A stretch of DNA of 26,345 nt, taken from positions 1-26,345 of the IMG/VR virus record IMGVR_UViG_3300034375_007308. One strand, given 5' to 3'. Positions 10,402 through 13,552 of this stretch are shown here, piece after piece; position 1 is the first letter of the stretch, and each line of letters opens with the position of its first letter. Source of the DNA: a virus. The position numbers and the translations under genes were made by a program. The notes beneath the pieces are model-generated. The model made no database searches. It saw only the letters and a program-made list of their open reading frames with translations, and had not been told where the DNA came from.

Positions 10402-10814
10402 TGTTGCTGTCTATTGAAGACGCTATTGACAAAGTAGAGGAGCATCTGGAGCAACTTCGAGAAGCATTGAGGATCCTATCACAGCCCGGCACGCTGGACG
10501 TGATTATGGAAGTCGCAAACCAATGGGCTGAAGACAAAAACAGCGCGTGGCTCACGATGAGAGCTGAGTGCGCTGAAAACGTAATCGAAGCCCTTTGGAT
10601 CTTCATCGAAGCCCACGATCGAATTTTCAAAGAGAGTGGCGGAATGGCTAATCTCTGTGATATGATTGGTATTGACGTTCAATCCATTCGAGATTCGATT
10701 CGAGTTGAGATGATCGAGCCGCTGATGGAGGGCGGGCTGTACGACGTGAACGTGTTTAAGTTTAGGGAGATGGTAACTAAACTCGTCGAGCGCCTGCATT
10801 CATGTGGCAACTGA
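10401..10814 (+). CDS. Hypothetical acidic helical protein, 137 aa
   Basis: Not recognised. The ATG at 10401 shares one base with the TAA of the reductase and has GGGAG 8 nt upstream; the longer frame from the TTG at 10386 would start inside the reductase and is not preferred. The product looks almost wholly alpha-helical and acidic, with a heptad-like N-terminus (IEDAIDKVEEHLEQLREAL) suitable for a coiled coil. No signal, membrane segment or catalytic motif. It overlaps the GTG start of the VRR-NUC gene by 11 bases. Confidence 0.75.
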   Translation: MLLSIEDAIDKVEEHLEQLREALRILSQPGTLDVIMEVANQWAEDKNSAWLTMRAECAENVIEALWIFIEAHDRIFKESGGMANLCDMIGIDVQSIRDSIRVEMIEPLMEGGLYDVNVFKFREMVTKLVERLHSCGN

Positions 10815-11193
10815 GAAAGCGTTAGAAAAATACGGCGCGTCTCAAGCAAAGCAAAGAGGCATCTTTGTCATCAAACTAGGTGTCTTGGGCGGTGGAGGCT
10901 GGCCCGATCACTCTTTTTTCAAAGGGGGTCGGGTCGCCTTTATCGAATATAAAGTAAGCGAATCCGCTAAGTTTCAACCCCTCCAGAAGTATTATCTCAA
11001 GCTATTATCAACGCTTGGTTTCCGAGTAGCCGTTTGCTGGACCAAGGATCAGGTGGATCAGTTTTTAGAAGGTTTCGACAATGAAATTCAAACCTCACGG
11101 TTATCAAGAGAATGTGCTGGGCAAGATGATGGAGCAGGGGAAGCTGGCTCTGCTTCTGGATCCGGGGATGGGCAAGACGGCGATCTGCCTTGA
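10804..11193 (+). CDS. VRR-NUC domain nuclease
   Basis: Small nuclease of the VRR-NUC family (PD-(D/E)XK fold), of the stand-alone phage type that accompanies SNF2-like helicases. The catalytic pattern is GGWPDHSFF (D35), then FIEYK (E48, K50), then a glutamine-rich QPLQKYYLKLL helix. In the family these nucleases act on branched or flapped DNA. The start is a GTG with only a weak upstream GAG. The nuclease domain ends at about residue 92; the last 37 residues are a Gly/Ser/Asp-rich tail encoded within the first 113 bases of the next gene in another frame. Total 129 aa. Confidence 0.83.
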   Translation: MATEKALEKYGASQAKQRGIFVIKLGVLGGGGWPDHSFFKGGRVAFIEYKVSESAKFQPLQKYYLKLLSTLGFRVAVCWTKDQVDQFLEGFDNEIQTSRLSRECAGQDDGAGEAGSASGSGDGQDGDLP

Positions 11194-12484
11194 GGATTTC
11201 GTCCGCCGACGAGATGCTATGATTGCCAGCCGCGCGTTGGTGGTAGCTCCGCTGAGAGTTTGCCATTCGACGTGGCCGACCGAAGTAAAGAAGTGGTCCA
11301 ACTTCTCGAACCTACGAGTGCAAGTGGCACACGGCAAAGGCAAGATTCTGGAGAGCGTCAACGCCGCAGATCTAGTCGTCATCAACCCGGAAGGACTCGA
11401 TTGGCTTTTACAGAATGCAAAGCACCTGTTTGCTTTTGATGTAATCTATGTTGATGAATCGACCATGTTCAAAAACAGCCAATCTAAGCGGTCGAAAACG
11501 CTGTATAAGGTTGTCCATTCTATGAATGGCGGCATTCCGTTTCGTTTTATCCTGACGGGAACACCCGCCCCGAATGGCGTCGAAAACCTATTCGGCCAGT
11601 TCAAGGTTCTCGACCCCGACATTCTGGGATCCACCCTAGCTAAATTTCGCGGAGATCATTACTTCTACGCGCGCAGAATGTCTTTTGGGATTCTGTGGGA
11701 ACCAACAAATGCTTCCGTGGAGTCAATCACGAAAGCGATCAGCCCCCATAGCGTTCGATTAGATGCAAACGATCATCTTGATCTACCGGGGATCCAGTAT
11801 ATCCGTAGGCCGATTCGTTTACCGCAAGAAGTGATGAGATTGTACCGGGAGCTGGATTCAGAGCTGATGATTGAGGTGAGTGGTGGGTTGGTCATGGCCG
11901 CGAATGCTGGCGTGGCTACCTCGAAATGCAGGCAGGTAGCTAACGGAGCTGTCTATCTGACAGAAAACGGTATGGCGGCGACCGAAGAAACTCGACGCAT
12001 CGAGTGGGTTCACACTTGCAAGGTGGAAGACCTCTGTGACCTCTACGAAGAATTAGGCGGGAAACCACTACTGGTTGGGTTCGAGTTCAAACACGATCTT
12101 AGCCAGATAAAACTGGGGGTCAAAGAGCGATTCGGTTTTACTCCCCGATACATCGGCGAGACCACAAACGCCGAAGCGGACGCAGAGCTGATCGAAAAAT
12201 GGAATCGACGCGAACTGCCAATGCTGATGATTAACCCAGCGGCAGCCTCGCATGGACTCAATCTTCAGGCCGGTGGGCATCACCTATATTGGTACTCGCA
12301 GATCTGGGATTTGGAGCTTTACCAGCAGTTTAATGCGCGATTGTGGAGGCAGGGGCAATCAGAGGGTGTCTTTGTCCACCACGCCGTCGCTGAAAAAACT
12401 GTAGACGAAAAAGCCTTTAAGGGCAGACTGAAAAAAGAGGGCACGCAAAGAAAGCTGCTGCTGGAATTGAAAGGAAACAAGTAA
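11081..12484 (+). CDS. SNF2-like (superfamily 2) DNA helicase/translocase
   Basis: DNA-dependent ATPase typical of the phage VRR-NUC/SNF2 pair, probably remodelling replication or recombination intermediates. N-terminal KPHGYQENVL is the Q-motif region, followed by motif I DPGMGKTA (K32), motif II DEST (D125-T128), motif III TGTPAPNG (from T162) and motif VI RLWRQGQ (R420, R423). The 467-aa length is normal for phage members, which lack chromatin-binding extensions. The start at 11081 is chosen because the family begins with this motif; AAGG lies 9 nt upstream. The first 113 bases are also coding for the VRR-NUC tail. The TAA overlaps the next ATG by one base. Confidence 0.92.
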   Translation: MKFKPHGYQENVLGKMMEQGKLALLLDPGMGKTAICLEDFVRRRDAMIASRALVVAPLRVCHSTWPTEVKKWSNFSNLRVQVAHGKGKILESVNAADLVVINPEGLDWLLQNAKHLFAFDVIYVDESTMFKNSQSKRSKTLYKVVHSMNGGIPFRFILTGTPAPNGVENLFGQFKVLDPDILGSTLAKFRGDHYFYARRMSFGILWEPTNASVESITKAISPHSVRLDANDHLDLPGIQYIRRPIRLPQEVMRLYRELDSELMIEVSGGLVMAANAGVATSKCRQVANGAVYLTENGMAATEETRRIEWVHTCKVEDLCDLYEELGGKPLLVGFEFKHDLSQIKLGVKERFGFTPRYIGETTNAEADAELIEKWNRRELPMLMINPAAASHGLNLQAGGHHLYWYSQIWDLELYQQFNARLWRQGQSEGVFVHHAVAEKTVDEKAFKGRLKKEGTQRKLLLELKGNK

Positions 12485-12501: not shown

Positions 12502-13107
12502 GCCGGTATGAACAAGGTAATCATCCTGACGGGAGCGGCGGGGAGCGGCAAAGATACGGTCGCGCAGGCTCTGAAAAACCATTTCGAGAAAATGGAAGAG
12601 GCAAAGTTTTCTGCCGCTCTGAAGGATCTGGTCTGCGATATGTTTATTTGGGATCGGAATCGAATCGACTCCGACCTCGAATACAAGCAGGAGATCGCGC
12701 GATGGCCGGGCGGAGGTGCAGTAAGCAACACGTCCGCAGGGCCGAGAACGCGCAGGGAGCTGCTTCAGCTAGTCGGCACCGACATGGTTCGAGACATGAT
12801 CGACAAGGACTTCTGGGTCAAGCGAACCTTGCTCCAGATGCGAATGGAGAGCCACCCGGATAGCCGGTGGGTGGTGTCTGATTGCCGATTTTGGAACGAG
12901 TACGAAGCCTTGAAACGATCCTTCAATGAATGTTTTGTGCTTCGCCTGCATCGGATGGGGCATACGATTGAGGAGTCTTCCCACCCATCAGAACAGGAAT
13001 GGAAGGAGATCCCGGCCGACGCTGAGATCGAAGTCTGGAGCGGAGATATTAGCAGGCTCACCGAAGGTTCCATTTCTTTGGTCAAATATTTTCTGGAGGA
13101 TGAATGA
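12484..13107 (+). CDS. Deoxynucleoside monophosphate kinase
   Basis: Phosphorylates dNMPs to dNDPs, working with the ribonucleotide reductase to feed the polymerase and to recycle degraded host DNA. The Walker A motif GAAGSGKDT is at residues 17-25 (K23), and RELLQLVGTDMVRDMID...FWVKR and WVVSDCRFWNEYEAL match the phage dNMP kinase family (T4 gp1-like). Length 207 aa. Two starts are possible: ATG 12484, which overlaps the helicase TAA and has AAAGGA upstream, or ATG 12508 (199 aa), which matches the usual family N-terminus (MNKVIILTG) but has no ribosome site. The last codon overlaps the next gene by 4 bases (ATGA). Confidence 0.88.
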   Translation: MDSCHNAGMNKVIILTGAAGSGKDTVAQALKNHFEKMEEAKFSAALKDLVCDMFIWDRNRIDSDLEYKQEIARWPGGGAVSNTSAGPRTRRELLQLVGTDMVRDMIDKDFWVKRTLLQMRMESHPDSRWVVSDCRFWNEYEALKRSFNECFVLRLHRMGHTIEESSHPSEQEWKEIPADAEIEVWSGDISRLTEGSISLVKYFLEDE

Positions 13108-13286
13108 GGTTCCTTCTCATCATGCTACTCGCGACCGGCTGTCATTCATTCAAGATGGCCGAAAAACAGATCAAGACGTATCTGAAACACGTCGATGAGA
13201 ACTACGATTGCATTGGAGTTGAGATCGTCGATGACGCCGCCATCTGCATTGATGATGTTGCGGTGACTATCACGGTGACTTTCTGA
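13104..13286 (+). CDS. Small putative lipoprotein, 60 aa
   Basis: The last gene of the rightward operon. It begins MRFLLIMLLATGC, a basic residue and hydrophobic core ending in a lipobox-like ATGC, so cleavage before C13 and lipid attachment are predicted, though Ala rather than Leu at -3 is less usual. The mature part is about 48 residues, acidic in the second half, with two more cysteines (C36, C48) that could form a disulfide in the periplasm. GGAGG lies 4 nt before the ATG, which overlaps the kinase TGA (ATGA). Phage lipoproteins of this size act in superinfection exclusion or as outer-membrane spanins; the early-operon position favours exclusion, but this is inference. Confidence 0.7.
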   Translation: MRFLLIMLLATGCHSFKMAEKQIKTYLKHVDENYDCIGVEIVDDAAICIDDVAVTITVTF

Positions 13287-13291
13287 CAACT

Positions 13292-13415
13292 ACTGCGCGG
13301 AGACCGCCTGCTGCGCCAGTCCCGGACGCTCGTCACGGCGGAGCCGGTTAGGGCGAGGTAGAGGTAAGGCCCGCCAACAGGGGATACTGGTCTGGTGACG
13401 CAGACCGGAGACCCC
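13292..13415 (+). ncRNA. Candidate structured RNA/element in the convergent junction
   Basis: A GC-rich non-coding stretch with several helices. ACTGCGC (13292-13298) pairs with GCGC-C-AGT (13313-13320, one bulge). GGCGG-A-GCC (13337-13345) pairs with GGCCCGCC (13368-13375), with a 22-nt purine-rich loop. GGTCTG (13389-13394) pairs with CAGACC (13401-13406), enclosed by GGGG/CCCC (13380-13383 and 13412-13415) across a 5x5 internal loop. The six loop bases GTGACG (13395-13400) are exactly complementary to CGTCAC at 13331-13336, giving a pseudoknot or an alternative fold. I do not recognise a known RNA family. Strand is assigned as + because on the minus strand it lies beyond the terminator. 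Confidence 0.4.
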
Positions 13416-13426
13416 AAATGCAAAAA

Positions 13427-13454
13427 GGCGGGGGGATCTCACGATCCCCCCGCC
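13427..13454 (-). terminator. Intrinsic terminator of the leftward structural operon
   Basis: Perfect 12-bp stem GGCGGGGGGATC / GATCCCCCCGCC with a 4-nt loop. Read on the minus strand it is followed immediately by five U (A at 13422-13426 on the + strand), the classical Rho-independent form. On the + strand no U-tract follows, so it would work there only weakly if at all. It lies about 100 bases past the last minus-strand gene. Confidence 0.9.
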
Positions 13455-13492
13455 TACGCAGCACGGCAAACCCCCGAAAGCCGTACTAAATG

Positions 13493-13552
13493 AAGTATCT
13501 CAGATCAGAGTTATTTCACGCCCACGAAAAACAACCCCTCTCTGAAATACTT
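13493..13552. repeat. Imperfect inverted repeat at the end of the leftward operon
   Basis: AAGTATCTCAGA (13493-13504) and TCTGAAATACTT (13541-13552) are inverted copies with one mismatch, separated by 36 bases. The right arm includes two bases of the stop codon of the last minus-strand gene. A second short hairpin, ACGGC/GCCGT (13463-13467 and 13480-13484), lies between this repeat and the terminator. Probably mRNA 3'-end structure of the operon. Confidence 0.5.

Follow-up and report, generated by a model that had tools for sequence, protein, structure and literature searches.

A previously undescribed family of structured phage RNA with an invariant pair of complementary hairpin loops

When the junction of two converging phage operons appears to be more structured than a terminator needs to be, an obvious question arises: what else is encoded there? 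We consider this question for a 26,345 nt IMG/VR virus record (IMGVR_UViG_3300034375_007308), the whole of which was analyzed and is referred to here as the window; all element positions are window positions. Rightward genes for a primase/helicase with VapE-like and Prim-Pol domains, an exonuclease, a single-strand binding protein and DNA polymerase A, followed further on by those for a ribonucleotide reductase, an SNF2-type helicase and a dNMP kinase, meet leftward genes for an endolysin and tail proteins. The convergent-operon gap (13287-13550), flanked by a plus-strand ORF that stops at 13286 and a minus-strand ORF that stops at 13551, comprises 264 bases, the length given in a preliminary description of the locus, whose positions for CGTCAC (13331-13336), GTGACG (13395-13400) and the two copies of GGAGACC (13299 and 13407) are equally accurate. 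That description had proposed a structured element in the gap, namely, an undescribed phage small RNA, an mRNA 3' element or a structured DNA site. Of these options, the small RNA is the best.

The junction contains a single strong terminator, an inverted repeat at 13426-13455 that reads the minus strand: the U-tract is found on the minus strand only, which identifies the repeat as the intrinsic terminator of the endolysin/tail operon, located outside the RNA described here. On the plus strand, the combination of a GC stem and a U-tract that defines an intrinsic terminator was not found, the last helices of the RNA (P6 and P7, see below) being followed in the window by AAAUGC. The suggestion of an element distinct from a terminator is borne out by the relative L030, which retains both the synteny and the terminator sequence but yields no match to our model R2 of the RNA. 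A promoter for the element was looked for in the window and none was found, and there is no same-strand gene 3' of the RNA in the window. On the 5' side, the plus-strand ORF 13104-13286 (60 amino acids) has a lipobox-like start (MRFLLIMLLATGC) and is kept as an ORF in L027, L028 and L030; its product, for which no family match was obtained, could, judging from the sequence, be a small lipoprotein, e.g. a spanin part. Elsewhere on the plus strand, the ORFs 10804-11193 (endonuclease-like, phrog_93) and 11081-12484 (helicase) overlap by 113 bases in different frames.

Protein searches yielded three relatives in which the genes around the junction are arranged as in the window, namely, L001 (on the same contig as L010, L029 and L049), L028 (the L046 contig) and L027 (the L050 contig). 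L001 is 95.8% identical to the window over 6.3 kb; in L027 and L028, the element is 88% and 85% identical to that of the window, respectively, as compared to about 66-72% for the flanking coding DNA. Between the window and L001, differences are in excess in 13052-13102 and in the RNA (13268-13414), with 13415-13538 identical, an unevenness that possibly reflects recombination patches. A second group, L045, L116, L163 and L164, was found by pattern scans and covariance models, among the matches listed; these four show no protein homology to the window, and the RNA is the same in L116 and L163. Altogether, there are at least seven distinct member sequences in viral contigs and, probably, more exist. 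The alignment analyzed below consists of seven distinct sequences from two unrelated phage lineages and, owing to the kinship within lineages, not all of the changes in it are independent.

This comparison makes it almost certain that 13294-13415 is a structured RNA. In the seven-member alignment, the proposed structure pairs in 99.4% of the cells, and changes on both sides are seen in 14 of the 38 nested pairs; moving the partners by one to three bases reduces the pairing to 31-44% of the cells and the number of such pairs to five or fewer. On four of five measures, none of 500 shuffles matched the observed value, and on the fifth, 11 of 500 did; the shuffle control ignores relatedness, and the slid control and the change count carry more weight. 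Even the closely related window and L001 differ at 17 places in the RNA, ten of which combine into five compensatory pairs (13308/13363, 13309/13362, 13327/13340, 13381/13414 and 13388/13407). The test for compensatory changes in homologous junctions, which had been proposed with the preliminary description, is thus passed. The strand is fixed by G-U pairs: 264 of the 266 cells pair on the plus strand as opposed to 239 on the minus strand, with 26 G-U cells and a single A-C cell. Hence, the RNA is read from the plus strand, and the strand specificity of the G-U pairs makes a structured DNA site unlikely.

Thermodynamics alone is weak support for the element, whereas the comparative evidence is far beyond chance. 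Specifically, the plus strand of 13292-13415 folds with z = -1.3, a stability equalled by 19 of 200 shuffles, and z is 0.0 for the minus strand; the value for the whole gap, z = -4.9, is largely owed to the separate minus-strand terminator, and energy minimization of L049 and of L046 gives structures that differ from the consensus. As for protein coding, no conserved open frame was found, stops occurring in changing frames among the members, and a shared reading frame is excluded by one-base indels in alignment columns 27, 60 and 97, with L046, L050, L116 and L164 differing from the window at different places. Frame-breaking indels also led us to drop the minus-strand ORFs 13202-13423 and 13290-13469. 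Mimicry of a Shine-Dalgarno sequence by GAGGU was likewise dropped, the corresponding bases being GAUGU in L116 and GAAGU in L164.

The RNA core, delimited by the seven-member alignment and the pair counts, encompasses about 122 nt of the plus strand (approximately 13294-13415) and consists of two arms: a long interrupted hairpin with the loop CGUCAC, and a hairpin of 12 bp that is interrupted by a single internal loop and carries the loop GUGACG. At the base of the first arm, P1 (13294-13300, UG-GCGG, with 13371-13376) has six pairs, one of which changes from C-G to U-A in L046; it is followed by P2 (13304-13309 with 13362-13369), where three types of pair are seen at 13308-13363 and likewise at 13309-13362, and by P3 (13311-13317 with 13352-13358), the 5' strand of which is largely invariant. 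Next comes an internal loop, AGUC (13318-13321) facing UUAG (13348-13351), which is invariant in all seven members, and, above it, P4 (13322-13325 with 13344-13347; C-G to U-A in L046) and P5 (13327-13330 with 13337-13340), in which the pair 13327-13340 is C-G, G-C or A-U and which closes the CGUCAC loop (13331-13336). The arms are joined by an ACA linker (13377-13379), with one base more in three members. In the second arm, P6 (13380-13383 with 13412-13415) reads GGGG/CCCC, GCGG/CCGC, GAAG/CUUC, AGAG/CUCU or GGAG/CUCU across members; a conserved internal loop, AUA (13384-13386) facing AGA (13409-13411), separates it from the P7 hairpin (13387-13408; stem 13387-13394/13401-13408), which has changes on both sides in six of its eight pairs and carries the GUGACG loop (13395-13400). 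The unpaired position 13370 (C or A) varies together with the P2 pairs: it is C with P2 CU/AG (window, L050 and L116) and A with the other versions of P2. This co-variation may stem either from a tertiary contact or from alleles with a common ancestor; the same version of P2 is found in L049 and L164, members of different lineages.

This fold departs from the three helices originally drawn for the element in its central part. The hairpin placed at 13389-13406 holds and, in fact, extends to 13387-13408, but the central helix, in which GGCGG (13337-13341) was paired with an upstream or a downstream CCGCC, does not hold in L049 and L046 with either partner. The bases 13337-13340 rather form the 3' side of a local hairpin, with CGUCAC as its loop of six bases. 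A pseudoknot between the two complementary loops had been considered sterically strained, so that partial melting or a two-state switch was preferred, and this objection, which rested on the non-conserved GGCGG helix, falls with it. Since both partners are free hairpin loops of six bases, they can pair in full without breaking or melting any helix.

The exact complementarity of the loops, correctly noted from the outset, is evidently of importance: both are exactly six bases long, fully complementary and invariant in all seven members. The CGUCAC loop is closed by 13330-13337, C-G or U-G, and the stem below GUGACG varies while its loop is fixed, six of the eight pairs being replaced in one member or another. 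The probability of a perfect match between two random 6-nt loops is 2.4e-4. Inasmuch as the pairs of the kiss never vary, the contact itself receives no support from covariation; from the invariance and the match, we infer that CGUCAC and GUGACG very probably form a kissing loop, and this could be within one molecule or between molecules.

The surroundings of the RNA differ between the two lineages. In the window and its relatives, it is placed after the dNMP-kinase operon, whereas in L045, L116, L163 and L164 it is found 7-8 nt upstream of a tRNA-Arg(UCU) gene, on the same strand; L045, the only member with a close upstream tRNA, has it also about 12 nt downstream of tRNA-Thr. In the window, L116 and L164, a stop codon immediately precedes the RNA, and L049 and L046 align at the same junction. 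In L045, L116 and L164, a GUUUU stretch comes between the 3' hairpin and the tRNA; across the family, a U-run after this hairpin is not conserved. In L116, the tRNA-Arg downstream of the RNA is directly followed by a gene for a pentapeptide-repeat protein (Pfam PF00805; 7824-8339). No convincing copy of the RNA was found in L011. The presence in two lineages with different neighbors points to an RNA gene that stands alone and is mobile among phages, and the regulatory tail of one mRNA does not explain such a distribution.

Does this RNA belong to any known family? The preliminary description had recognized none, and our searches concur: at the gathering threshold, no Rfam 15 family matches in the window, and permissive searches with short stretches gave only weak matches, far below threshold. 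In particular, there was no match to the Rfam models of ROOL and GOLLD, whose size the core of about 122 nt also does not reach, of phi29 pRNA, or of ribozymes and riboswitches. The resemblance of GGAGACC to the B12 box of cobalamin riboswitches was dropped, as the cobalamin models of Rfam gave no match up to E 10. ARAGORN detected neither tRNA nor tmRNA genes in the window, nor any over the RNA itself in L045, L116, L163 and L164. The exact pattern GGTCTG(N6)CAGACCGGAGACC had zero matches in viral contigs because the stem sequence varies; the pattern matches L047, L048 and L051-L055 were dismissed as chance. Distant blastn searches of cultured phages and plasmids with the window, L045, L116 and L164 elements returned chance fragments or nothing, a pattern scan of GTDB genomes gave two chance matches in which the fold is absent, and a model search of 398 genomes, all of one phylum and thus an uninformative sample, found no copy. 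The family of structured phage RNA with an invariant kissing-loop pair is genuine and previously undescribed; it resembles several known RNAs in parts, and is a member of no family that could be tested.

Among these analogs, RNAC and RNAD of phage T4 are small stable RNAs beside tRNA-Arg, with no role assigned (PMC3014915; PMC9697503). Like the second-lineage copies, they are small phage RNAs (119-139 nt) with tRNA-Arg as a neighbor; however, they are downstream of tRNA-Arg whereas our RNA is upstream, and there is no credible match in sequence or structure, the best hit of model R2 in the T4 tRNA region with filters off scoring 9.0 bits on the opposite strand, over tRNA-Gln. T4 RNAC (L184:1909-2047, minus strand) ends in a hairpin resembling a tRNA T-arm (CCGGGUUCGAAUCCCGG) and folds well below shuffles (z -4.6).

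What, then, might such an RNA do? On balance, we favor a compact, structured, trans-acting phage RNA that would be processed out of an operon transcript and bind a protein as a scaffold or decoy; action in trans rather than in cis appears likely, and the particular role of protein scaffold or decoy is put forward tentatively. The region 13294-13415 would be transcribed from the plus strand with its neighbors, i.e. with the dNMP-kinase operon in the window and with the tRNA cluster in the other phages. The two arms, on a linker of 3-4 nt, would then be joined by full pairing of CGUCAC with GUGACG, and this kiss would lock a rigid shape that presents the invariant internal loops. In the tRNA-cluster phages, the 3' end would probably be freed by the RNase P cut at the 5' end of tRNA-Arg, which is a consequence of established tRNA processing. 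The RNA would most likely bind a host or phage protein rather than act as an antisense: there is almost no exposed single strand, the longest unpaired run within the core being 4 nt, and, of the 36 positions of the core that are neither paired nor part of the kiss, 26 do not vary among the first five members, which would suit a rigid surface for protein binding.

Alternatively, the RNA could act in cis, as a folded 3' end that stabilizes or ends the plus-strand mRNA in the window and, elsewhere, as a processing or attenuation leader of tRNA-Arg. The start at the stop codon and the hairpin-GUUUU-tRNA order, which could terminate or attenuate, are compatible with this possibility. Such a role is, nevertheless, unlikely considering that the neighboring genes on both sides are wholly different between the two lineages, that the window has no same-strand gene downstream, that the U-run is not conserved, that L030 has the synteny and the terminator without the RNA, and that the invariant internal loops and the kissing pair exceed the needs of a stabilizer. 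Thus, the mRNA 3' element of the preliminary description is possible for the window alone and fits the tRNA-adjacent copies poorly.

A somewhat less probable arrangement is an intermolecular kiss that would build dimers, rings or cages. The pRNA of phage phi29, about 120 nt long, is also a small phage RNA with two complementary hairpin loops. Its intermolecular kiss involves four base pairs, AACC/GGUU (PMC7357161), as compared to the six predicted here, and the loops of our RNA, being complementary to each other and not to themselves, would suit head-to-tail assembly of this kind; the arms, moreover, are unequal in length, so that an intramolecular kiss requires a sharp bend. ROOL and GOLLD, phage RNAs near tRNA islands with unassigned function, assemble via kissing loops (PMC12286853), and thus share with our RNA the phage origin, the tRNA neighborhood and the kissing loops, predicted in our case. 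However, the bend could be provided by the invariant internal loops, and homology to pRNA, ROOL or GOLLD is lacking, as judged by Rfam; ROOL and GOLLD are far larger, many GOLLD members exceeding 800 nt, and our RNA is located beside replication genes or tRNAs, not packaging genes.

That the RNA is a self-cleaving ribozyme of a new class or a ligand-binding RNA is improbable, even though the many invariant unpaired positions and the occurrence of phage ribozymes next to tRNAs would be in keeping with it. HDV-like ribozymes form a nested double pseudoknot, which differs from the topology found here. The theta (HDV-like) ribozymes of gut phages are, similarly to our RNA, structured phage RNAs adjoining tRNA genes, but their place is downstream of the tRNA, at the 3' end of which they cleave (PMC10879173), whereas here the tRNA is downstream of the RNA; Rfam ribozymes and riboswitches do not match, and the window contains no regulated gene downstream.

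Still less probable is the two-state switch, in which CGUCAC and GUGACG would pair only once stems melt: the complementarity is indeed exact, but the fold supported by covariation leaves both partners as free loops, and the competing GGCGG helix is not conserved. In HIV TAR-TAR* and ColE1 RNAI-RNAII, loops of 6-7 nt pair completely with the stems unmelted; these kisses are intermolecular, and they resemble the one proposed here in the way they work, not by homology. Finally, a chance structure or by-product of the terminator, with which the unremarkable folding energy of the element (z -1.3) would agree, is refuted by the pair counts, and covariation, conservation above that of coding DNA and occurrence in unrelated phages all speak against it.

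Few cases of a demanding tertiary fold are known among small phage RNAs, and this family offers a compact, defined fold in which stems are swappable and the core is invariant, together with a loop-loop contact that can be tested. A more far-reaching possibility, which we consider doubtful, is that of a new class of RNA machine, self-assembling or catalytic, with an invariant six-bp kiss, that would travel between unrelated phages as an RNA gene of its own and serve them against the host, e.g. by acting as decoy for a defense or translation factor. The carrier phages of the two lineages share nothing else detectable. Taken together, the exact match of the loops and the occurrence of the same RNA beside tRNA-Arg in unrelated phages suggest that this RNA is probably a real phage tool, one that lends itself to immediate synthesis in vitro and to use as bait in the search for its partner.
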